Position numbers and translations under genes: made by a program
Part shown: piece by piece, positions 791 through 40,425 of the stretch
How positions within the stretch are numbered: the first letter of the stretch is position 1
Layout: every line of letters begins with the position of its first letter
Notes under the pieces: model-generated
Databases searched by the model: none
What the model was told of the DNA's origin: nothing
The model's input: only the letters and a program-made list of their open reading frames with translations
DNA from: Melioribacteraceae bacterium 4301-Me
GTDB taxonomy: Bacteria; Bacteroidota; Ignavibacteria; Ignavibacteriales; Melioribacteraceae
Direction of reading: 5' to 3'
DNA length: 64,000 nucleotides
Assembly (NCBI GenBank): GCA_041538185.1
Contig: JBGORM010000001.1
Coordinates: 372,001-436,000 of the forward strand

Positions 791-1396
791 TTATTTAGCA
801 TGCCTTTCCGTAAGTTTATTTGTTATATCTTCGAGCTCAATTTCTCTATCGACAAGCATTACAAACAAATGGTAAATCAAATCGGATACTTCATTAATTA
901 TCTCATTTTTATCATTGTTTTTTGCAGCAATAATAGTCTCTACTGCTTCTTCTCCTACTTTTTGAATTATTCTATTTGTACCTTCTTGAAATAGTTTACT
1001 TGTGTATGAGTTTTTTGGTAATTCTATTTTTCTTGACTGTATTAGCTTAAATAAATATTTCAAAAAATTTAGGTTCTCTTTTTCAATTCCAAAACAAGAA
1101 TAATTTCCTGTATGGCATGTAGGTCCTTCCGGTTTGGCAAAAATAAGCAAAGCATCATTATCACAGTCAGCTAATATTTTAGATAATTTTAAATAATTGC
1201 CGGAAGTCTCACCTTTAGTCCACAGACTTTTTCTTGAACGACTAAAGAAAGTAACAAGCTTTGTATCGATAGTTTTTTGTAATGATTCACGGTTCATGAA
1301 ACCAAGCATTAGAACTTGAGAAGTAGTTTCATCAACGACAATTGATGGGATTAAGCCATTATTCTTATCAAAGTTCAATTTATCAATTTCAGTCAT
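791..1396 (-). CDS. hisIE: Bifunctional phosphoribosyl-AMP cyclohydrolase / phosphoribosyl-ATP pyrophosphatase
   Basis: This 201-residue fusion carries out histidine steps 2 and 3. Residues 1-105 are HisI: LWTKGETSGN at 58-67, the metal-binding Asp cluster DCDND at 77-81, and the zinc cysteines in GPTCHTGNYSCF (C94, C101). Residues from about 110 on are HisE, with the pyrophosphatase motif GEEAVETIIAAKN at 148-160 and a second acidic helix (EVSDLIYHL). The length is normal for HisIE. It is the last gene of the his operon and its ATG overlaps the end of hisF by 4 nt, which suggests translational coupling. It acts in the cytoplasm. Confidence 0.96.
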   Translation of the reverse strand: MTEIDKLNFDKNNGLIPSIVVDETTSQVLMLGFMNRESLQKTIDTKLVTFFSRSRKSLWTKGETSGNYLKLSKILADCDNDALLIFAKPEGPTCHTGNYSCFGIEKENLNFLKYLFKLIQSRKIELPKNSYTSKLFQEGTNRIIQKVGEEAVETIIAAKNNDKNEIINEVSDLIYHLFVMLVDREIELEDITNKLTERHAK

Positions 1397-2148
1397 AGTC
1401 TTATTCCTATGTTATTATCCGACAAGTATTTTTTTAGTTCAATTATATTTAATTGGTTATAGTGAAATAAACTTGCAGCGAGACATGCATCAACATTAGT
1501 GAATTTAAATGCTTCTAAAAAATGTTCTTTTGCTCCAGCACCGCCGCTTGCAATGACTGGTATTGTAACTAAATCAGCTAATTTTTTTAGGAACTCTAAA
1601 TTGTATCCTTTACGAGTTCCATCATGGTCAATTGATGTGAGCAAAATTTCCCCGGCACCGCGATCACATACTTCTTTACACCATTTAAAGCCTTCGAGTT
1701 GAGTCTGTTGTTTTCCGCCTTGAATGTAAACAAGATATTTGCCGTTTACTTTTTTAACATCAATTGCTGCAACTATCGCCTGGCTGCCAAAAATTTTAGA
1801 AGCTTCTTCTATTAAATTTGGATTGCGAACAATTGCAGAATTTAACGAAACTTTATCAGCACCCGCATCCAATAAATTCCCTATATCAGTTAATGTTGAA
1901 ATTCCACCGCCGACAGTAAAAGGAATTCTTATGACACGTCCAACTTCTTTTACTAACTCAATTAAAGTCTTTCTTTTTTCTTCTGTTGCTGTTATATCCA
2001 GAAAAACTAATTCATCTGCATTTTCGATGTAATAACGATGCGCTAATTCTACTGCAGAACCGCTGTCTTGTAAATTTATAAAGTTTGTACCCTTTACTAC
2101 TCTTCCGTCTTTGACATCTAAACAAGGTATAATTCTTTTAGCTAACAA
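1393..2148 (-). CDS. hisF: Imidazole glycerol phosphate synthase cyclase subunit HisF
   Basis: This 251-residue (beta/alpha)8 barrel is the cyclase half of IGP synthase and pairs with HisH, encoded two genes upstream. It uses ammonia from HisH to convert PRFAR to IGP and AICAR. The first catalytic Asp is D11 in PCLDVKDGRVVKG. The second lies in VAAIDVKK (D130 in family numbering). Phosphate-binding loops FTVGGGI and PVIASGGAGA are intact. It overlaps hisA by 11 nt and hisIE by 4 nt. Length and motifs are fully canonical. Confidence 0.97.
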   Translation of the reverse strand: MLAKRIIPCLDVKDGRVVKGTNFINLQDSGSAVELAHRYYIENADELVFLDITATEEKRKTLIELVKEVGRVIRIPFTVGGGISTLTDIGNLLDAGADKVSLNSAIVRNPNLIEEASKIFGSQAIVAAIDVKKVNGKYLVYIQGGKQQTQLEGFKWCKEVCDRGAGEILLTSIDHDGTRKGYNLEFLKKLADLVTIPVIASGGAGAKEHFLEAFKFTNVDACLAASLFHYNQLNIIELKKYLSDNNIGIRL

Positions 2149-2857
2149 ATTTGCTTAACTCCTTAAGGCTAATTTTATTTTCATAAATTGCTTTGCCGAC
2201 AACTGATGCGTAAATATTTATTTTTTTTAATGCAAGAAGGTCATCAACCGAGCTAATACCGCCAGAAGCAATTAATTTAATTTGTGGATAAGAAGACATA
2301 ATTTTTTTATAAAATTCTATGTGAGGTCCTTGCAAAGTGCCATCTTTTAATACATCCGTACACAAGTAATATTTTATGCCCAAAGAGATGCAATAATTTA
2401 AATGATCCCAAATACTGATGTTACTCTCTTTTGTCCATCCTTTTATTAACACCATTTCGTTTTTTACGTCGAGTGCTACAACAATACTTTCGGCACCAAA
2501 TTTAATTACGGTTTTTTCAAAATCATCTTTGTTCAGCACTGACATTGATCCAACGATAATTTTATCAATTCCTTCTTTTATGAGTAATTCAGCTTGCAAA
2601 AAATTTTTTATTCCGCCGCCAAATTGAATTCTTAATTTTGAAGACTTCTTAATTTCTTTCAATAAATTTATTGTGGTGATATTACCACTTACTGAAGCGA
2701 CAAGGTCAACAATGTGAACCCAAGGAAATAAATGCTGCTCAAATTTTTGTATTATTTCGATTGGGTTATCACCATAGATTTTAATTTGATTAAAATCTCC
2801 TTTAAGCAATCGTACAACTTTGCCATTATAAATATCAACTGCTGGTATAGTTAACAT
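2138..2857 (-). CDS. hisA: ProFAR isomerase HisA
   Basis: This 239-residue protein is 1-(5-phosphoribosyl)-5-[(5-phosphoribosylamino)methylideneamino]imidazole-4-carboxamide isomerase, histidine step 4, an Amadori rearrangement. The barrel begins MLTIPAVDIYNGKVVRL with catalytic D8. The second catalytic Asp is in LCTDVLKDGTLQGP. The glycine-rich phosphate loops RIQFGGGI and IASGGISS are present. It is homologous to the neighbouring HisF, as the two barrels share ancestry. A TrpF-overlapping PriA role is not indicated by anything I can see. It overlaps hisH by 7 nt. Confidence 0.95.
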   Translation of the reverse strand: MLTIPAVDIYNGKVVRLLKGDFNQIKIYGDNPIEIIQKFEQHLFPWVHIVDLVASVSGNITTINLLKEIKKSSKLRIQFGGGIKNFLQAELLIKEGIDKIIVGSMSVLNKDDFEKTVIKFGAESIVVALDVKNEMVLIKGWTKESNISIWDHLNYCISLGIKYYLCTDVLKDGTLQGPHIEFYKKIMSSYPQIKLIASGGISSVDDLLALKKINIYASVVGKAIYENKISLKELSKFVS

Positions 2858-3438
2858 TTCTCTATAAAATTTTTTAATAACTTAATTCCAACTACACCGG
2901 ATTTTTCAGGATGAAACTGCACACCGTAGAAATTTTCTTTTTGCACTGCAGCAGAAAAATTAATTTCATAATTGCAAGAAGCTATTGAAAATTGATTTGC
3001 TGGCACATAAAAAGAATTTGCAAAGTAGAAATAAGTTTCATTTTCAATTTCATCAAATAATTTTGATTTATTATTTATAAAAATTTTATTCCACCCCATG
3101 TGTGGCACTTTAACTTTTTCTGAATTAAATTTTTTTGCTGCTACGGGAATAATACCTAGACATTTAACGTTGCCTTCTTCTGAATAATCGCAAAGTAATT
3201 GCATGCCGAGACAAATTCCCAAAAAAGGCTTTTTACATTTTTGGATAATGTCAGTTAAATTTTGTGAATTAATATTATTCATAGCAGAAGAAGCTTCGCC
3301 CACGCCCGGGAAAATTATTTTCTCACTTTCATTTATTTCTTTGGCGTTGTTTGTAACAATAAAGTCAGCGTTCAAATCGTCGAGCGCATTAATTACAGAT
3401 TGAATGTTTCCTGCTCCATAATCGATTATAGCAATCAT
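2851..3438 (-). CDS. hisH: Imidazole glycerol phosphate synthase glutaminase subunit HisH
   Basis: This 195-residue class I glutamine amidotransferase feeds ammonia to HisF. The nucleophile C76 lies in FLGICLGMQLL, and H176 and E178 of the triad are in GVQFHPEKSG. The N-terminus, IAIIDYGAGNIQSV, is diagnostic of HisH. It overlaps hisB by 4 nt upstream and hisA by 7 nt downstream. Confidence 0.97.
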   Translation of the reverse strand: MIAIIDYGAGNIQSVINALDDLNADFIVTNNAKEINESEKIIFPGVGEASSAMNNINSQNLTDIIQKCKKPFLGICLGMQLLCDYSEEGNVKCLGIIPVAAKKFNSEKVKVPHMGWNKIFINNKSKLFDEIENETYFYFANSFYVPANQFSIASCNYEINFSAAVQKENFYGVQFHPEKSGVVGIKLLKNFIEKC

Positions 3439-4034
3439 AAGACACCTTTAGTAGACGGCAAGTCATTTTTATTTCTTGGGTCATATTTAAAAGCCTCATT
3501 TAACGATTTTGCAACAGCTTTAAACATAGATTCAATTTTATGATGGTCATTTTCTCCGGATGTTTTTAGATAAATATTTGCTCGCATTCCTTGGGCAAGT
3601 GACTTAAAAAACTCTTTTGTCAATTCGGTAGGAAAGTCGCCAACATATTCTCTGTTAAATTTACACTTAAAAACAAGGTAAGGTCTTCCTCCCAAATCGA
3701 TGGCGCATTGTGTAATTGAATCATCCATAGGGAGTAGAAATCCATAACGAGAAATACCGCGTTTATCACCTAAAGCTTTGTCTATTGCTTCGCCAAGTGC
3801 TAAACCAACGTCTTCTACCGTATGATGTTCATCAACATATAAATCGCCTTTTACAGATAAAGTTAAATCAATATTCGAATGCTTTGCTAATTGTTCAAGC
3901 ATGTGGTTAAAAAAGCCTAAACCTGTGTTAATCTTATACTTCCCTGAACCATCTAAATTTACTGAGATTTTTATTTTGGTCTCTTTAGTGGTTCTTTCAT
4001 ATTTTACTTTTCTGACTGGGCTTTTTTCTTTCAT
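3435..4034 (-). CDS. hisB: Imidazoleglycerol-phosphate dehydratase HisB (monofunctional)
   Basis: This 199-residue enzyme performs histidine step 6. The two metal-binding signatures are visible: GLGFFNHMLEQLAKHSNID with DEHHTVEDVG, and further on GENDHHKIESMFKA. It lacks the N-terminal HAD histidinol-phosphatase domain found in the enterobacterial bifunctional HisB, so the phosphatase step must be encoded elsewhere. Overlaps on both sides are 4 nt. Confidence 0.96.
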   Translation of the reverse strand: MKEKSPVRKVKYERTTKETKIKISVNLDGSGKYKINTGLGFFNHMLEQLAKHSNIDLTLSVKGDLYVDEHHTVEDVGLALGEAIDKALGDKRGISRYGFLLPMDDSITQCAIDLGGRPYLVFKCKFNREYVGDFPTELTKEFFKSLAQGMRANIYLKTSGENDHHKIESMFKAVAKSLNEAFKYDPRNKNDLPSTKGVL

Positions 4035-5083
4035 AGTATTTTCTTCAGTTCGTCAATAAATTTTTTGTTTTCTTTTTCGGTGCCTACCGTAACACGTAAG
4101 CAGCCTTTAACTTGATTGCTTCTATCACGTATAATTATTCCTTTTGCTGCCAATCTTTCATAAATAATTTTTGGTTCTTCTACTTCAAATAATATGAAAT
4201 TTGAGTCCGATGGGTAAACTTTTTTAATCCCTCTTATTTTGTCCAACTCATCTATCAAATATTTTCTTTCTGATATTATTTTGTTTTTTAATTTTTCTTT
4301 TTCCCCGATATTCTCTAATGCTTCAATAACTTTTGCTGAAGTTAGTTTATTTAGGTTGTAAGGAAGTTTGATTTTGTAAAGGTAATTAATAATTTCTGGT
4401 TGAGCGATGCAATATCCACATCTAATTCCTGCTAAACCCCAAGCTTTAGAGAATGTTCTAAGTAATATGATGTTTTTCAAATCTATTGTTTTGACTAAAT
4501 CTATTTCTTCTTCTGCAAAATCATAATAAGCTTGGTCAACTACAATGATAGCTGGGAACTCTTTAGCTAAGCGTAATATGGAGCTTTGCTCAATTAAATT
4601 GCCTGTCGGATTATTAGGAGAACATAGAAAAATAATTTTTATTTTTTCATCGAAAGAATTTTTAACAGCGTTAAAGTCTATTTGAAATTTTTTGTTTAAC
4701 TCTACCTTTACAACTTCAACGTCGTTGATATTACAAGCTACTTCGTACATTCCATAAGTTGGTTCTAATATCATAGCTTTGTCTTTGCCAGGAGTACAGA
4801 ATATTCTTATAGTTAAGTCAATAATTTCGTCTGAGCCAACTCCAATGAAAAGATTTTGTGGATTTACATTTATGTATTCAGAAAGTCTTTCTTTAATTGT
4901 TCTATGATAAGGATCTGGATATCTATTGAGCATTAAGCCATTATCATTAACCACACTACCGTAAGCATTTTCATTTGCATCCAGCAAAATTATAGATTCA
5001 TCTTGCGGCAGATGAGATTCTCTGGCAGAGGTATACGGTTTTAGTTTTTCAATGTTTTCTCTAACTAATTTTCCTATGTCCAT
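4031..5083 (-). CDS. hisC: Histidinol-phosphate aminotransferase HisC
   Basis: This 350-residue fold-type I PLP enzyme converts imidazole acetol phosphate to histidinol phosphate. The PLP-binding Lys is K213 in LLRTFSKAWGLAG. SPNNPTGN (155-162) and VVDQAYYDFAEE (181-192) hold the other cofactor contacts, and LDANENAYG (34-42) is the substrate segment typical of HisC. Its ATG lies inside the last codons of hisD (10 nt overlap). Paralogous aromatic aminotransferases look alike, but the operon position settles the role. Confidence 0.96.
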   Translation of the reverse strand: MDIGKLVRENIEKLKPYTSARESHLPQDESIILLDANENAYGSVVNDNGLMLNRYPDPYHRTIKERLSEYINVNPQNLFIGVGSDEIIDLTIRIFCTPGKDKAMILEPTYGMYEVACNINDVEVVKVELNKKFQIDFNAVKNSFDEKIKIIFLCSPNNPTGNLIEQSSILRLAKEFPAIIVVDQAYYDFAEEEIDLVKTIDLKNIILLRTFSKAWGLAGIRCGYCIAQPEIINYLYKIKLPYNLNKLTSAKVIEALENIGEKEKLKNKIISERKYLIDELDKIRGIKKVYPSDSNFILFEVEEPKIIYERLAAKGIIIRDRSNQVKGCLRVTVGTEKENKKFIDELKKIL

Positions 5084-6366
5084 TTTGCCATCCTTATTTT
5101 TACAGCGTTTGCGTGAGCATTTAGTTTTTCTTCTTCCGCCATTTTTATTACAGTTCTAGAAATTTTTTTAAAGCCCTCTTTTGACACTTCCTGAAATGTT
5201 ATTCCTTTCATAAAAGATTCTACACTAACACCTCCAACTGATTTAGAATATCCCATTGTGGGTAGTGAATGGTTAGTTCCTGATGCATAATCACCTATGC
5301 TTTCTGTTGAGTATCTGCCAATAAAAACTGACCCGGCATTTTTAATTTTGTTAATGAGTCTTTTTGCATTCTTAAAATTCAGTATTAAGTGCTCTGGAGC
5401 ATAAATGTTCGAAAGTGTAACAGCGTCTTCTATTTTAGTGACAACTAAGATGAAAGACGATTTCAATGATTCTGTTATAATTTTTCGGCGGGGAAGACTG
5501 CTGACTTGTTTTTCCATCTCATCTTTTACTTGTCGAGCAAGATTAAAATCATCTGTAATTAAAATTACTTGGGAATCTGCGCCATGCTCTGCTTGCGAGA
5601 GCAAATCAGCTGCAACATGTGCAGCATTGGCAAATTTATCTGCAATTATGAGTAACTCGCTTGGTCCTGCCAACATGTCAATTGTGCATCCACTTGAATC
5701 AATACTTACAAGACTTTTCGCTGCTGTTACGTATTGATTTCCTGGACCAAAAATTTTGTCGACTTTTTTAATTGATTCAGTTCCATAAGCCATCATTCCA
5801 ATTGCTTGTGCACCACCTATGTTATAAAATTCTGTAATATTGCATTTGAGAGCAGCATAAGCCATTTGTGGACTAATCTTATTATCATTTAATTTAGATG
5901 TTACAATTACTCTTTTACAGCCAGCAATTTTTGCTGGAATTCCGAGCATTAATAATGTAGAAAATAGTTCAGCACTTCCTCCGGGGATATATAATCCTAC
6001 ATTCTCTATTGGTAAAAATATTTTCTTACATTTTATTCCTTTCGTTGTCTCGATTGAATAGCCATTCGGTTTTTGGTATTTATGAAAATTGTAGATATTA
6101 TTTGCTGCTGTATCAATCGCTTCTTTTAATTCTTTATCAATTTTTTTTGCAGCATTAATTATCGTGTTACGAGGCACTAAAAAATTTTTACCTCTGAGGC
6201 CATCGTATTTTTTAGCGTATTTGATTAACGCTTTGTTGCCTTTTTGCTTTATATCTTCAAGAATCGGTTTTACAGTTTTAATTGCACGTTCGTTGTTTAT
6301 CGCTGTTCTTGAAAATAATCGCTCAATAGTTTGATTTGAAGTTTTGTTGTAAGTATAAATTTTCAT
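5074..6366 (-). CDS. hisD: Histidinol dehydrogenase HisD
   Basis: This 430-residue zinc- and NAD-dependent enzyme does the last two oxidations, histidinol to histidine. Clear motifs are GLYIPGGSAELFSTLLM, KIFGPGNQYVTAAK, DMLAGPSELLI, DLLSQAEHGADSQVILIT with the zinc-site Gln and His, APEHL, and ASGTNHSLPT near the end. The length matches the family. It overlaps hisG by 4 nt. Confidence 0.97.
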   Translation of the reverse strand: MKIYTYNKTSNQTIERLFSRTAINNERAIKTVKPILEDIKQKGNKALIKYAKKYDGLRGKNFLVPRNTIINAAKKIDKELKEAIDTAANNIYNFHKYQKPNGYSIETTKGIKCKKIFLPIENVGLYIPGGSAELFSTLLMLGIPAKIAGCKRVIVTSKLNDNKISPQMAYAALKCNITEFYNIGGAQAIGMMAYGTESIKKVDKIFGPGNQYVTAAKSLVSIDSSGCTIDMLAGPSELLIIADKFANAAHVAADLLSQAEHGADSQVILITDDFNLARQVKDEMEKQVSSLPRRKIITESLKSSFILVVTKIEDAVTLSNIYAPEHLILNFKNAKRLINKIKNAGSVFIGRYSTESIGDYASGTNHSLPTMGYSKSVGGVSVESFMKGITFQEVSKEGFKKISRTVIKMAEEEKLNAHANAVKIRMAKWT

Positions 6367-7232
6367 AATATCATGTTATCTATTGTTAGAAGCAAAATAT
6401 CTGATGCGCCAACTTTTTTTAAATTGCGTAATATGTCCCAAAACTTATCAGAAGGTATTACAGCATGAACTGCCACCATCGATTCATCTGCCAAGGGAAG
6501 AATAGTTGGACTTTTTAGTGCTGGCAGAACACTTTTTATTTTTTCTATTGCACTCTTAGGTGCGTTCATCATTAAATACTTAGATGATTTAGCTTTAAGC
6601 GCAGAATCAATACGAAAAAGTAGTTCTTCAAATACATTATTCTTTTTTTCGTCTTTATGAATAAATTTATTTGCAATTAAGACAGCTTCTGATTCAAACA
6701 CATCAAATGATTTTTTAAGCTTATGTAATTTTAATGTGTTACCGGTCGAAACTAAGTCGCAAATTGCATCTGCTATACCAAGTGATGGAGCAGTTTCAAC
6801 TGAGCCACTAATTTCTACTATAATTGAGTTGAGATTATTTTTTTTAAGGAAGTCATTGAGTAAATTAGGATATGAGGTAGCGATACGTAGCCCATTGAAT
6901 TCATTTAGTTCTTTTACTTCTTTGCTTTCCGGCACGGCAAGAGAAAATTTACACTTACCAAAACCAAGTTTTCTTATTATTTCTGCATCTGCTTTTTTCT
7001 CGTAAAATACATTCTCACCTACAATTCCTATATCGGCTACTCCATCTTTAACGTATTCTGGAATGTCATCGTCTCGTAAATAAATAATATCCATATCGAA
7101 ATTTTGTACTGAGATTATAAGTCTATCGTTATAATCCTCTATTTCTAATCCCGCTGTTCTTAACAATTGAATTGATTTTTGAGTTAGTCTGCCATTTTTT
7201 TGTATAGCTAATTTTAAGTTACCGTTAAGCAT
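6363..7232 (-). CDS. hisG: ATP phosphoribosyltransferase HisG, long form
   Basis: This is the first structural gene of the operon and the committed, feedback-regulated step (ATP + PRPP to PR-ATP). At 289 residues it is the long form that carries its own C-terminal ACT-like regulatory domain (about 215-289, with PLADESMVAVHAVIPSDKFW), so no HisZ is needed. The N-terminal catalytic part shows LAIQKNGRL, DIGIVGENV and DAICDLVSTGNTLK. Start ATG 7232 is chosen because GGAG sits 6 nt upstream and the other nearby ATG (7236) meets a stop at once. The ORF begins 11 nt after the T-tract of the attenuator. Confidence 0.97.
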   Translation of the reverse strand: MLNGNLKLAIQKNGRLTQKSIQLLRTAGLEIEDYNDRLIISVQNFDMDIIYLRDDDIPEYVKDGVADIGIVGENVFYEKKADAEIIRKLGFGKCKFSLAVPESKEVKELNEFNGLRIATSYPNLLNDFLKKNNLNSIIVEISGSVETAPSLGIADAICDLVSTGNTLKLHKLKKSFDVFESEAVLIANKFIHKDEKKNNVFEELLFRIDSALKAKSSKYLMMNAPKSAIEKIKSVLPALKSPTILPLADESMVAVHAVIPSDKFWDILRNLKKVGASDILLLTIDNMIL

Positions 7233-7242
7233 ACATGCTCCA

Positions 7243-7274
7243 TAAAAAAAAACCCCGACTTTAGCGTCGGGGTT
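7243..7274 (-). terminator. his operon attenuator: intrinsic terminator
   Basis: On the minus strand AACCCCGAC (7274-7266) pairs perfectly with GTCGGGGTT (7259-7251) across a six-base loop and runs straight into a T-tract of about nine (7252-7244). It sits between the His-rich leader peptide and hisG, exactly where an attenuator terminator must be. Confidence 0.93.
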
Positions 7275-7317
7275 GTGTGAGTAAATAATATTAAACTGAC
7301 TAAACTAATCCGACGCC
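7264..7317 (-). promoter_or_regulatory. his antiterminator pairing (segments 2 and 3)
   Basis: GCGTCGG at 7316-7310, inside the last codons of the leader peptide, is the exact complement of CCGACGC at 7270-7264, the loop-proximal part of the terminator's 5' arm. The two structures exclude each other, so this is the expected antiterminator. Segment 2 can also fold back on CCTC at 7326-7323 through GAGG at 7319-7316, giving a small 1:2 hairpin. Only complementarity is observed; the regulation is inferred. Confidence 0.82.
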
Positions 7318-7371
7318 TCTTGGAGGTATAAAATGATAATGATGATAATATGTATGGATTAGCCTTGTCAT
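7300..7371 (-). CDS. hisL: his operon leader peptide (23 residues)
   Basis: The short ORF reads MTRLIHTYYHHYHFIPPRGV and then GLV before a TAG stop. Four of eight consecutive codons are CAT (His), interleaved with TAT. It lies 15 nt or so after the inferred transcription start and ends 26 nt before the terminator hairpin. Ribosome stalling at the His codons under histidine starvation would free segment 2 to form the antiterminator; smooth translation to the stop would cover it and allow termination. The frame stays open upstream to 7521, but that part lies before the promoter, so ATG 7371 is the likely start. No Shine-Dalgarno is visible. The symbol follows the enterobacterial analogue; similarity is functional, not homologous. 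Confidence 0.88.
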   Translation of the reverse strand: MTRLIHTYYHHYHFIPPRGVGLV

Positions 7372-7392
7372 TTCGCGTTCATTTTTGTACTG

Positions 7393-7422
7393 CAAAAATA
7401 AGCATTTTGGATTTAATGTCAA
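7393..7422 (-). promoter_or_regulatory. his operon promoter, Bacteroidetes-type
   Basis: TTGACA at 7422-7417 is followed by TATTTTTG at 7400-7393, with 19 nt between TTG and TATTTTTG. This matches the -33 TTG / -7 TAnnTTTG consensus described for Bacteroidetes housekeeping sigma. It would start RNA near 7386, just ahead of the leader peptide ATG at 7371. Confidence 0.75.
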
Positions 7423-7457
7423 TACTTTTACTGCTGTATTGTTGTTAGTTCCATTGG

Positions 7458-7851
7458 TGTCCAAAATAATTTTGGAATCAAATCCCGAAGGGATGGATAC
7501 CCAAATAAATTTATAATACAATCAAATTCTTATGGGAATACATCCCTTCGGGAATTGTTTTTCTTAATTAGTTGATAAAACCTATCTCGTCCCTACGGGA
7601 CTTTTGAATTCATAGGGTTGTAAATCTTCTAGAAATATTCAATCCCTAACGGGATTATGATAATGTTAAAATAACAATCCTCAAAAGCTTTTTGTCAAAT
7701 TAGGGACAAAATATCTATAGAAAGAGATAATCCCAACATACCACAAGGTGTGGGAATCCACCACTTCGTGGGTGGTGAATTCTCATCGTGGGTGAATTCT
7801 CATCAAAAAGTCCCGTAGGGACGATATAAAAAATTATTTTGGACAGATATG
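7458..7851. repeat. Cluster of short palindromes and dispersed repeat modules
   Basis: This gap between the his promoter and the GH13 gene contains a string of TCCC-N3/4-GGGA palindromes at about 7484, 7543, 7590, 7643 and 7811, roughly 50-60 bp apart at first. 7458-7512 is a near-identical inverted copy of 40367-40420. 7583-7607 is an inverted copy of part of 40293-40320. 7712-7800 resembles 62497-62570, and 7825-7851 resembles 61895-61922. No coding frame is convincing here. Confidence 0.8.
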
Positions 7852-7990
7852 GTTAGTTAAGTTCTATGTCCTAATTGCATAAAAAATAGAAAGTTATAAA
7901 CTACTAAGCGCAATACAAAGACTACTTTATTTATGAAGATTATAAAAATATTTTTTATTTATATTTATTCATCGAATTGATAGGATTTAT

Positions 7991-10900
7991 ATGCAGCTAA
8001 GAGTTAATATGAGATATAAAGAAAATTATTGTTCATTACTAAAAACAGGCATTAAGTTTGAATTTCACATTGCAAAGCAAGTAAGGGAGCAGTATCAATT
8101 TGATGATGAGCTTTTTTCTATTAACGGCAATGTAATTTTTGCAGATTTCAAAAGTGTACGTCTTTTTGTTCAAAAAATAAACTCGAAAAGAAATTACGAA
8201 CTTCATGTAAGACCTGGTGAGGTTAACGCTGCTGGGTTGATTGATGAAATTTATCATTTTATACTTAATGAGTATGAAAATCGTGTGAATCCAAACGTAT
8301 TTCAAAAGGCAGTTAATTTTTTAATTGAAGAAGTTAATGCAGATTCACTTAACAATGTGTTGTCTGATTTTATCGATGTGTTTCCACCTATTGATGTTTA
8401 TAACGGAAAATTAAATACTGCAGATTACCTAAATTCTTCAACGGAAAACAAATCTCATATAGAAATTACATTACAAGAAATTATAACGCTTTATTTCGCC
8501 AATTTTAATCCGGCTAATCAGCGAATTATTGAGCTTTTCGATGAAAATTATTTAAATGAAAAGAGCTTATATAATTTTCTGATAAAAAAATTGGATGAGT
8601 TCTTTCAGCGAGAGAAAAAGTTTGGGCCTGATAACCAAGATATTTTTTCGTTTTTAAAAACGCCAATTATTAAAAATCCTAACAGTCACGAAGCTCAACT
8701 CGATTTTATTTTTGAACGATGGGGCGTACTTATTAAAGAAAAATTTGGCAATAGAATTTTACAAAGCAAAGATTTAATGAAAGAAGATTTACGCTTTGAA
8801 TTTTTGGGAGGAGGAGCTCCAACAGCAGTACCTAAGTTTAAAGATAAAATGAATGATGCAGATTTTCTTACACTTGGTAAATCGGGCTATAGATACGCTG
8901 AAGATATTTGGAAAGATTACGAAGAGCCGAAGAACTTCACAGAAGATATTGATTGGATGCCAAAAGTAGTTTTGATAGCAAAAAATGTTTACGTATGGTT
9001 AGACCAGTTATCCAAAAAATACCAAAGAACAATTAAAACTTTAGATCAAATCCCCGATGAAGAATTAGATTTATTAGCTAATTGGGGATTTAACGGCTTG
9101 TGGCTAATTGGTATTTGGGAAAGAAGCAGTGCATCACGTAAAATAAAACACTTATTGGGAAACATTGATGCAACTGCTTCAGCATACTCACTCTACGATT
9201 ATCAAATTGCAAGTGATTTAGGAGGCGAGGACGCATTCAATAATTTAAATGCTCGTGCATTTCAACGAGGCATTCGTCTTGCAAGTGATATGGTGCCAAA
9301 TCATACAGGTATTTTTTCCAAATGGATTTTGGAAAAGCCGAATTATTTTATTCAAATTGATTATTCACCTTTCCCAAATTACACTTTTAATGGACCTGAC
9401 CTTTCTGATGATCCATCTATCCAAATTCGAATTGAAGACCATTATTGGAATCGTTCTGATGCTGCAGTCGTTTTTCAAAGAATTGATAATCGTACTGGAG
9501 AAATACGTTACATTTATCACGGTAACGACGGCACTAACATGCCATGGAATGATACTGCTCAACTTAATATGATTAAACAAGAAGTAAGAGAAGCAGTAAT
9601 TCAAAAAATCTTAGAAGTCGCAAGGAAATTCTCTATTATTCGATTTGATGCCGCAATGACCTTAACCAAACGTCATTTCTCACGTTTATGGTATCCACCA
9701 CCTGGTCAAGGTGGCGATATCCCATCTCGCTCTGATTTTTCAATGACACAAAGTGAATTTGATAAATTATTCCCAACAGAATTCTGGCGTGAGGTGGTCG
9801 ATAGAATTAATTCTGAAATGCCAAATACTTTGTTACTTGCAGAAGCATTTTGGCTAATGGAAGGATATTTCGTACGTTCACTCGGTATGCATCGTGTCTA
9901 TAATTCTGCTTTTATGCACATGATGATGAAAGAGGAAAACGAAAAATATCGCGACCTTATTACTAATACATTAGAATTTGAGCCTGAAATATTAAAAAGA
10001 TATGTTAATTTTATGAGCAATCCAGACGAGGAAACAGCTATAAAACAATTTGGGACAGACGACAAATATTTTGGTGTTTGCACTTTAATGGTTACTTTAC
10101 CCGGTTTACCAATGTTTGCTCATGGACAAATTGAAGGTTTCACTGAAAAATACGGCATGGAATATAAAAAGGCTTATTATCAAGAATCACCTTTGCAATG
10201 GCTTATCGAAAGACATGAAAGAGAAATTTTTCCATTAATAAAAAAGCGCTACATCTTTGCTGGAGTAGAAAATTTTTGGCTGTTCGATTTCATCGATAGC
10301 TTTGGAAATGTTAACGAAAATGTTTTTGCGTTTACTAATATGGCACAAGGTGAGCGTGCTGTAGTTTTTTACAATAATAAATTTGAATACACCTCTGGTA
10401 AAATTTATCGTTCAACATCTAAACTTGTAAATGAACAACTACAAACTAAAACATTGTCAGATGCCATTAAAATAAATACTTCTAAAAACTACTTTTATGT
10501 CTATCGTGAATTAAATTCGAAATTGGAATTTATTAAAAGTGGTGAAGACATAGCTCAGAACGGATTCAGTGTTGAACTACATGCTTTCAAATATAAGGTT
10601 TTTATCGATTTTAAAGAGGTTTATGATGACTCTGGTGCATGGCAAAAATTATGTGAAAAATTAGATGGCAGGGGAGTGTCAAATATTCAACAAGAGAAAA
10701 TTTTGATGACCTTAGAACCAGTCCATAAATCTTTTGGGGATTTATTTTTGCCTGAGACGATTGAAGGTTTTATAAACTATTTATTTGAAACGGGGAAAAA
10801 TAATAGTGCTAATACGATTGTTGAACCTTTAGAGAATAAGTATAAAAATCTGCTCAAAGAGATAACAAGATATTGCTCAATTGAAGTCGATCATTCCCAG

Positions 10901-11644
10901 ATGATAAGTAATTTTATTTCTGTTGCAGAATCTGCTCATAATTTGAATTCAGTTTTATGCAACGAATTCCCAGTTGATAAAAATATTGTGAATAAAAATA
11001 TACAAGATATGATTGTTTTTTCTATCATCAATAATTATAAAGAAAATATTGTTCTACTTTTGCTGTGGGATACAATTAGAAATTTAAAAGAATTATTTGA
11101 AGATAAAGGTAAAATTAACAAGAGCAACTTCATTAATAAACTTATGCTTGATATACCAATAAAAAATATTTTGATGGGAGTAACGCACAATGATACTAAT
11201 CTCTATTACGAAATATCACTATTAAATGTTTTATTCCATAATAAAGTCAATCTTCTAAATTTATTTGAGATTAATTACGAAGAAAAGCAAATAGATAACA
11301 TTACTAAAACAACTAAAGATAATTATCTCAGTTTAATTGACTCTTTTTTTGAAAATGAGCATGTTAAATTTTATTTGGGTGTAAATTGTTTCGAAGGTGT
11401 TTGGTATTATAATAAAGAAAGGTTCGAAGAACTACTTAAGTGGATTTTAACTATCAACTTACTTTCACTTTATACAAATGATAAAAATAAAAGCAAAGAA
11501 GAAATAGCCATTTTTTACATAAAAAAACTATCCAAATTATATAGTTCTATCGTTACACTCTCAAATGAATGTGGGTATAAATATGATTTTTTAAAAGAGA
11601 AATTGAAGAATTTAATTTTAGATAATAATCTTAAATTAATATGA
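7991..11644 (+). CDS. Large GH13 alpha-amylase-family protein
   Basis: This 1217-residue protein has a GH13 TIM barrel at about residues 320-800. Conserved region I is SDMVPNHTG (432-440). Region II is IIRFDAAMTL with the nucleophile D553. Region III is LLLAEAFW with acid/base E618. Region IV is FMSNPDEE, where D679 is kept but the usual His before it is Pro. All three catalytic carboxylates are therefore present. About 270 N-terminal and 400 C-terminal residues match no domain I know. There is no signal peptide, so it is probably cytoplasmic and acts on alpha-glucans or related oligosaccharides; substrate cannot be told. ATG 7991 has AGGA 6 nt upstream. It stands alone with its own terminator. 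A transglycosylase rather than a hydrolase is possible. Confidence 0.85.
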   Translation: MQLRVNMRYKENYCSLLKTGIKFEFHIAKQVREQYQFDDELFSINGNVIFADFKSVRLFVQKINSKRNYELHVRPGEVNAAGLIDEIYHFILNEYENRVNPNVFQKAVNFLIEEVNADSLNNVLSDFIDVFPPIDVYNGKLNTADYLNSSTENKSHIEITLQEIITLYFANFNPANQRIIELFDENYLNEKSLYNFLIKKLDEFFQREKKFGPDNQDIFSFLKTPIIKNPNSHEAQLDFIFERWGVLIKEKFGNRILQSKDLMKEDLRFEFLGGGAPTAVPKFKDKMNDADFLTLGKSGYRYAEDIWKDYEEPKNFTEDIDWMPKVVLIAKNVYVWLDQLSKKYQRTIKTLDQIPDEELDLLANWGFNGLWLIGIWERSSASRKIKHLLGNIDATASAYSLYDYQIASDLGGEDAFNNLNARAFQRGIRLASDMVPNHTGIFSKWILEKPNYFIQIDYSPFPNYTFNGPDLSDDPSIQIRIEDHYWNRSDAAVVFQRIDNRTGEIRYIYHGNDGTNMPWNDTAQLNMIKQEVREAVIQKILEVARKFSIIRFDAAMTLTKRHFSRLWYPPPGQGGDIPSRSDFSMTQSEFDKLFPTEFWREVVDRINSEMPNTLLLAEAFWLMEGYFVRSLGMHRVYNSAFMHMMMKEENEKYRDLITNTLEFEPEILKRYVNFMSNPDEETAIKQFGTDDKYFGVCTLMVTLPGLPMFAHGQIEGFTEKYGMEYKKAYYQESPLQWLIERHEREIFPLIKKRYIFAGVENFWLFDFIDSFGNVNENVFAFTNMAQGERAVVFYNNKFEYTSGKIYRSTSKLVNEQLQTKTLSDAIKINTSKNYFYVYRELNSKLEFIKSGEDIAQNGFSVELHAFKYKVFIDFKEVYDDSGAWQKLCEKLDGRGVSNIQQEKILMTLEPVHKSFGDLFLPETIEGFINYLFETGKNNSANTIVEPLENKYKNLLKEITRYCSIEVDHSQMISNFISVAESAHNLNSVLCNEFPVDKNIVNKNIQDMIVFSIINNYKENIVLLLLWDTIRNLKELFEDKGKINKSNFINKLMLDIPIKNILMGVTHNDTNLYYEISLLNVLFHNKVNLLNLFEINYEEKQIDNITKTTKDNYLSLIDSFFENEHVKFYLGVNCFEGVWYYNKERFEELLKWILTINLLSLYTNDKNKSKEEIAIFYIKKLSKLYSSIVTLSNECGYKYDFLKEKLKNLILDNNLKLI

Positions 11645-40129: not shown

Positions 40130-40425
40130 TATATTTTTTATTTTGTCCCTAAAGGGACTTAATCTATTTCTTTGTTCTTTATCCTATAAATATTTTGTCC
40201 TGACGGGATAATAAAGCTTTGATTATCCTTAAACCAATGTAATCCCTTTAGGAATTATATAGTTATAGAATAAATAAATATCAAACTGAAGTTAAAAGTC
40301 CCGTAGGGACGAGATAGGGATTGATTTACAAGACAAGTAGAATAGTCCAAAATCTTGAAGTTTTCTAAATTTATTTGGTAATTCATCCCTTCGGGATTTG
40401 ATTTCAAAATTATTTTGGACAACAG
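40130..40425. repeat. Second cluster of TCCC/GGGA palindromes
   Basis: The gap 39960-40539 contains palindromes of the same type as 7458-7851, at about 40145, 40198, 40242, 40298 and 40386. 40367-40420 is an inverted near-copy of 7458-7512, and 40293-40320 matches 7583-7607 inverted. The remainder of the gap is plain AT-rich DNA, with AGGA 8 nt before the next gene. Confidence 0.8.

Follow-up and report, generated by a model that had tools for sequence, protein, structure and literature searches.

The his attenuator of enteric bacteria combines a His-rich leader peptide, mutually exclusive hairpins, and a terminator ahead of hisG. Comparative surveys by the Lyubetsky group reportedly exist as well and may include Bacteroidetes. 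Among the published sources considered here, each available in part, a survey of his genes across the superphylum puts attenuation ahead of hisG for E. coli and S. enterica (PMC8305728), another mentions hisG leaders from gamma-proteobacteria and gives counts of leader genes for Bacteroidetes (PMC4833913), and in a third the amino-acid attenuators rest on four Rfam motifs (PMC3766115). Short open reading frames (ORFs) reminiscent of leader peptides are mentioned for Bacteroides (PMC7366714), and in Bacillus His leaders are described for hisZ and a hisS paralogue (PMC2965389). For Flavobacterium psychrophilum, the accessible text reports strong signs of attenuation by leader peptides ahead of amino-acid operons, which it leaves unnamed, and the absence of Shine-Dalgarno sequences (PMC9723704).

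We analyzed a stretch of 64,000 nucleotides from Melioribacteraceae bacterium 4301-Me (the window, meaning the whole stretch), which contains a putative his leader. With the E. coli and Salmonella his attenuator (RF00514) it shares the His-rich leader peptide, the mutually exclusive hairpins, and the terminator before hisG; it differs in its TAnnTTTG-type promoter and in giving no RF00514 match, a search that is the sole sequence comparison between the two. The predicted attenuators of F. psychrophilum likewise belong to amino-acid biosynthesis operons of the wider Bacteroidota with TAnnTTTG promoters, a likeness drawn from the available text without operon names or anatomy (PMC9723704). The Bacillus leaders, likened by description rather than by sequence and from a partial text, also combine a run of His codons in a small ORF with a premature terminator but serve other genes in another phylum (PMC2965389). 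In the literature searched, with most subscription papers outside its coverage, we found no description of ribosome-mediated attenuation in Ignavibacteriota. A sequence-only reading of this DNA had remarked that few cases have been tested in the lineage, and the same literature does hold predictions for the Bacteroidota group and no tested his leader. The present analysis thus extends a textbook gene switch, with comparative pairing evidence, to an order for which the literature searched has no such regulation.

Anatomy of the leader region

Table 1. Predicted features of the his leader region and the genes behind it, in window coordinates.
Feature	Position	Strand	Remarks
his leader region, whole element	7422-7233	minus	upstream of hisG
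Predicted promoter	7393..7422	minus	TTG 7422-7420, 19 nt, TATTTTTG 7400-7393; Bacteroidota-type TTG / TAnnTTTG; read directly
Leader ORF MTRLIHTYYHHYHFIPPRGVGLV + TAG	7300..7371	minus	23 codons; ATG 7371, TAG 7302-7300
Predicted regulatory His codons 6, 10, 11, 13	7333..7356	minus	all CAT; four within eight codons
Region 1 GGCTAATCC, 5' side of 1:2 stem	7356..7364	minus	folding: pairs with 7311-7302; above shuffles as a 36-genus set
3' side of 1:2 stem GGATTAGTTT	7302..7311	minus	folding; extends to the stop codon
Region 2, antiterminator GGCGTCGG	7317-7310	minus	within R-G-V-G codons at the leader's end; duplex scoring, covariation
Region 3 CCGACGCT, target of region 2	7270-7263	minus	spans terminator 5' arm and start of loop
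Intrinsic terminator AACCCCGAC-GCTAAA-GTCGGGGTT	7274-7251	minus	9 perfect pairs, loop of 6
Terminator U-tract	7244..7250	minus	read directly
hisG, first gene behind the leader	6363..7232	minus	TIGR00070, 195.3 bits vs cut-off 75.75
hisD, hisC, hisB, hisH, hisA, hisF, hisIE	791..6366	minus	NCBIfam models above cut-offs

The sequence-only reading had proposed a TTG-19-TAnnTTTG promoter, a 23-codon leader with four His codons in eight, an intrinsic terminator with a perfect 9-bp stem, and a GCGTCGG complementary to the terminator's 5' arm. The promoter sequence is recovered by direct reading and by a pattern search, the leader by translation, and the terminator is as described, with T's after it. 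The complementarity holds as well, with a correction of detail: GCGTCGG in region 2 pairs exactly with CCGACGC in region 3, but only the CCGAC of that target lies in the 5' arm, and its GC(T) belongs to the terminator loop. The 3' end of region 2 falls 10 nt ahead of the end of the stop codon, and 18 nt separate the hairpin's end from the hisG ATG (7232). In an alignment with the sister genome, the leader's 72 nt are free of gaps, and gaps are present 3' of the stop. A mini-ORF, ATGAACGCGAAATGA (7382-7368), overlaps the leader start; its counterpart in the sister genome differs, and we assigned it no role.

Of 36 genus representatives, 20 have an exact TAnnTTTG in the 60 nt that precede the leader's start, against 2.6 expected from shuffling, and in 14 of the 36 a TTG stands 18-21 nt before it. 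Matches to a sigma-70 type promoter in 6900-8000 numbered 7 against 6.3 expected, and because this count is at chance level they were not used as evidence. As a separate observation, short palindromes of the form TCCC-NNN-GGGA occur six times in the window, against 0.18 expected, at 7483-7821, immediately ahead of the his promoter, and in one other place, 40299-40396, a clustering in the manner of a REP-like intergenic repeat.

The operon comprises eight histidine genes in the order hisG-D-C-B-H-A-F-IE, and from hisD to hisIE neighboring genes overlap by a few bases. A gene for a 1217-aa protein (7991-11644, plus strand), with no NCBIfam match at 1e-10, adjoins it.

Several comparisons set this arrangement apart from chance. 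Folding of 7370-7233 beats 200 of 200 shuffles (z -3.98), and four His in eight codons arose in none of 620 shuffles over 31 same-family loci. Across the 64 kb, for the 14 residues tried, no second ORF of 10-60 codons combines a fourfold occurrence of one residue within eight codons with a terminator, by our own criterion, within 90 nt. The enteric His_leader model, RF00514, gave no match in the whole genome at E 0.001 and matched 2 of 14 control genomes, E. coli among them; the his attenuator of this genome is not recognizable by that model. A plasmid DNA similarity search with 7560-7180 returned no match.

Conservation and covariation across the order

The comparison set for the order comprised 48 loci: 43 from the hisG-bearing genomes among 58 relatives (own included) and 5 further loci of the same family. 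A His-rich leader in which eight codons include three or more His precedes hisG in 47 of them, where shuffled upstream regions yield 0.70, and one with four or more in 41, where shuffling yields 0.05. Leader and terminator occur together in 46, the window's own locus included, the opposite of the outcome that the sequence-only reading had named as refuting it, a lack of conservation of the leader codons in relatives. Neither element was found in L037, and L039 has the His-rich leader without a terminator by our own criterion.

From these loci, 36 genus representatives were included on the condition that eight codons of the leader contain three or more His. Their leaders are 14-36 residues long with 3-6 His each, and the stop codon lies 20-43 nt from the terminator. 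His is the commonest leader residue (160 in the 36 leaders, His-richness being the selection criterion), encoded in frame with the start by CAT 137 times and by CAC 23 times. Of the 36 genera, 30 have the antiterminator entirely within the leader ORF; in 29 of the 36, the distance from its end to the end of the stop codon is 3-10 nt, a spacing at which a terminating ribosome would cover it.

Covariation supports the antiterminator. The duplex score is that of the best pairing between two segments, the RNA that follows the His run as far as the terminator, and the 5' arm of the terminator with its loop. Over the 36 genera the mean is 16.97 for cognate partners and 13.96 for permuted ones (z 7.2; none of 10,000 permutations as high, genera being treated as independent here and in the other permutation and Wilcoxon tests). 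The signal weakens to z 3.2 with the 5' arm alone and to z 0.5 with either the loop plus 3' arm or the 3' arm alone. The duplexes share a CGG:CCG core, and because the cores are alike only 5 of 36 genera have their own partner as best or tied-best; L023 and L038 reach no more than 3 bp in their best duplex. Beyond the core, for which an anchor was available in 33 of the 36 genera, cognate partners extend by 3.03 contiguous pairs and permuted ones by 1.83 (0 of 20,000).

The third position past the core is a terminator-loop base in 28 of the 33 loci and is thereby free of the terminator's own constraint. Read as regions 3 and 2, it is G-C in 8 loci, U-A in 7, A-U in 8, and unpaired in 10, with at least seven whole-pair changes on the HisG tree of pairing loci (18/25). 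Compensatory changes in the 2:3 pairing, which the sequence-only reading had put forward as a test, are therefore present. These repeated base-pair replacements also offer a ready test set in which leader codons carry the stall signal and an RNA pairing partner at once.

The 1:2 pairing was another of its proposed checks. As a set, the 36 genera have a mean of 12.3 expected pairs between the region around the antiterminator and the 5' part of the leader, against 7.6 when that 5' part is shuffled (Wilcoxon p 3e-8), but singly only 16 of the 36 reach 0.05, three (L004, L006, and L030) pair less than their shuffles do, and for the window alone the fraction is 0.12, which is not individually significant. 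The locus otherwise has what defines the attenuator class, namely a leader ORF rich in codons for the operon's product, a terminator before the first gene, and a covarying antiterminator exclusive with that terminator; the remaining trait, a 1:2 stem that sequesters the antiterminator in the absence of a ribosome, is seen over the set of 36 with the same reservation for the window alone.

Predicted switching and alternative readings

Taken together, these features make it very probable that the his leader, whose ORF, antiterminator, and terminator are conserved in most of the order, acts by ribosome-mediated transcription attenuation, its steps being deduced from sequence and folding. The mechanism would likely be of the ordinary, known kind. 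RNA polymerase would start near 7388, and a ribosome would translate the leader. When charged tRNA-His is abundant, the ribosome would reach the TAG and cover region 2, so that the terminator forms and transcription ends just before hisG. With charged tRNA-His short, it would stall at His codons 6-11 and cover region 1, leaving region 2 to pair with the emerging region 3 before the terminator's 3' arm is made; polymerase would then read through into hisG-IE. Were the leader left untranslated, the 1:2 stem would hold region 2 and the terminator would form.

We modeled these states by folding the transcript up to a point before the terminator's 3' arm, assuming a start site at 7388 and a ribosome footprint of 30 nt (15 nt either side). 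With no ribosome, P(2:3) is 0.28 and P(1:2) 0.71. A ribosome at His 6, 10, or 11 raises P(2:3) to 0.95, 0.95, and 0.94, respectively; at His 13 the value is only 0.39, and at the stop codon it is 0.00. A stall at His 6, 10, or 11 is thus predicted to free the antiterminator. Once the full terminator is present, it prevails at equilibrium whatever the ribosome state (P 0.94-0.97). The switch must therefore be kinetic and decided during RNA synthesis, a property that equilibrium folding cannot show.

This dominance of the terminator in all the folded ribosome states would also suit another arrangement, in which a fixed leader and an ordinary terminator do no more than limit expression of hisG, the His run having no signaling role. 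We consider this unlikely, as the run is kept in 47 of the 48 order loci in leaders that otherwise vary between genera, and the bases of the terminator loop covary with leader codons, for which a plain terminator would have no need.

A second alternative concerns what is sensed. In the window and the sister genome alike, three Tyr codons stand among the His codons, and from their alternation the sequence-only reading had suggested that stalling might also depend on Tyr supply, which would make the leader a joint sensor of histidine and tyrosine. That suggestion fares poorly against the wider comparison: 15 of the 36 genus-representative leaders have no Tyr codon at all, a single base change turns CAT into TAT and so His into Tyr, and the downstream genes belong to the histidine pathway. 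Judging by these leaders, Tyr is not a conserved feature, and we regard joint sensing as very improbable. Least probable of all, with hardly any weight, is a leader RNA that binds a protein or an uncharged tRNA in the manner of a T-box and is not read by the ribosome, given that an Rfam scan of the window found no family at gathering score (T-box and RF00514 included), that the antiterminator sits inside the ORF in most genera (30/36), and that the His codons, in frame with the start, are of both kinds (CAT 137, CAC 23).

Other families and the trp leader of the same genomes

Ribosome-mediated attenuation of his operons appears to extend well past the order. We examined 87 class and phylum loci, consisting of 35 of 44 class matches and 52 of 215 phylum matches, the latter spread by hand over families. 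A His leader is present in 43 of the 87, against 2.65 expected from shuffling, and leader and terminator together in 23. In those 23 loci cognate 2:3 pairing again exceeds permuted pairing (z 8.4), and the own partner is best or tied in 13. The antiterminator sequence is family-specific: CTCAAGCG faces CGTTTGAG in five of seven f37 loci, GTAAGCC faces GGCTTAC in L102 (f32), and throughout L102-L137 (f32, f34, f37, f41, f55, and others) the antiterminators are unlike those of the window's order and are matched to their own terminators. Of ten named loci, at least three being repeat entries, nine have a His leader and eight of these a terminator too, a Bacteroidaceae and a Bacteroidales record among them; in L052 (Dysgonamonadaceae) both are missing, and L053 (Puia dinghuensis) has the leader alone. 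As predicted from these leaders, his attenuation reaches other families of the wider Bacteroidota group, and such a spread over families means that it is no rarity there.

The distribution is uneven. None of 38 loci from ten families (f5, f6, f7, f10, f19, f25, f33, f35, f40, and f50) has a His-rich leader, and these families double as a false-positive control. In f39, f29, and f38 (L094-L099, L105-L108, and L128-L129), all 12 loci have a His-rich leader and, by the strict criterion, none has leader plus terminator; possibly these leaders use another form of terminator, or control there is by Rho or at translation.

Within the window's own genome, the region upstream of hisS held nothing convincing, and neither did those of the leuA-type genes, where Leu-rich ORFs occur with no terminator by our own criterion. 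A trp leader, MKIKNETYYFNSLNTWAWWWCMDKYKFPVN, does lie upstream of trpE with a terminator (G000:C13, L146/L155) and a predicted promoter, TTGACA...TATCTTTG; in its general, Trp-rich build it resembles the his leader. All of the best-matching 30 trpE loci, own included, are preceded by an ORF in which eight codons include two or more Trp, and in 29 of them the number is three or more.

The trp leaders seem to be wired differently from the his leaders, their partner being the loop and 3' arm of the terminator. Over 24 genera this pairing gives z 5.2 (0 of 10,000) and beats that with the 5' arm and loop in 19. The latter exceeds chance too (z 2.7; 52 of 10,000); taken singly, the 5' arm (z 3.7) outscores the 3' arm (z 2.2). 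Because the 5' arm signals are above chance as well, the loop appears to carry much of the trp signal, and the opposite wiring is only a lead. More broadly, attenuation may be a general layer of control in Ignavibacteriales and much of the wider Bacteroidota, with an antiterminator that is part of the final leader codons and changes its whole sequence from family to family, and with his (5' arm and loop) and trp (loop and 3' arm) wired in opposite ways within one genome; we offer this as a tentative proposal whose chances we put slightly below even. The clearest trp case is that of the window's own genome (G000), where the last leader codons form 12 bp with the terminator's loop and 3' arm.
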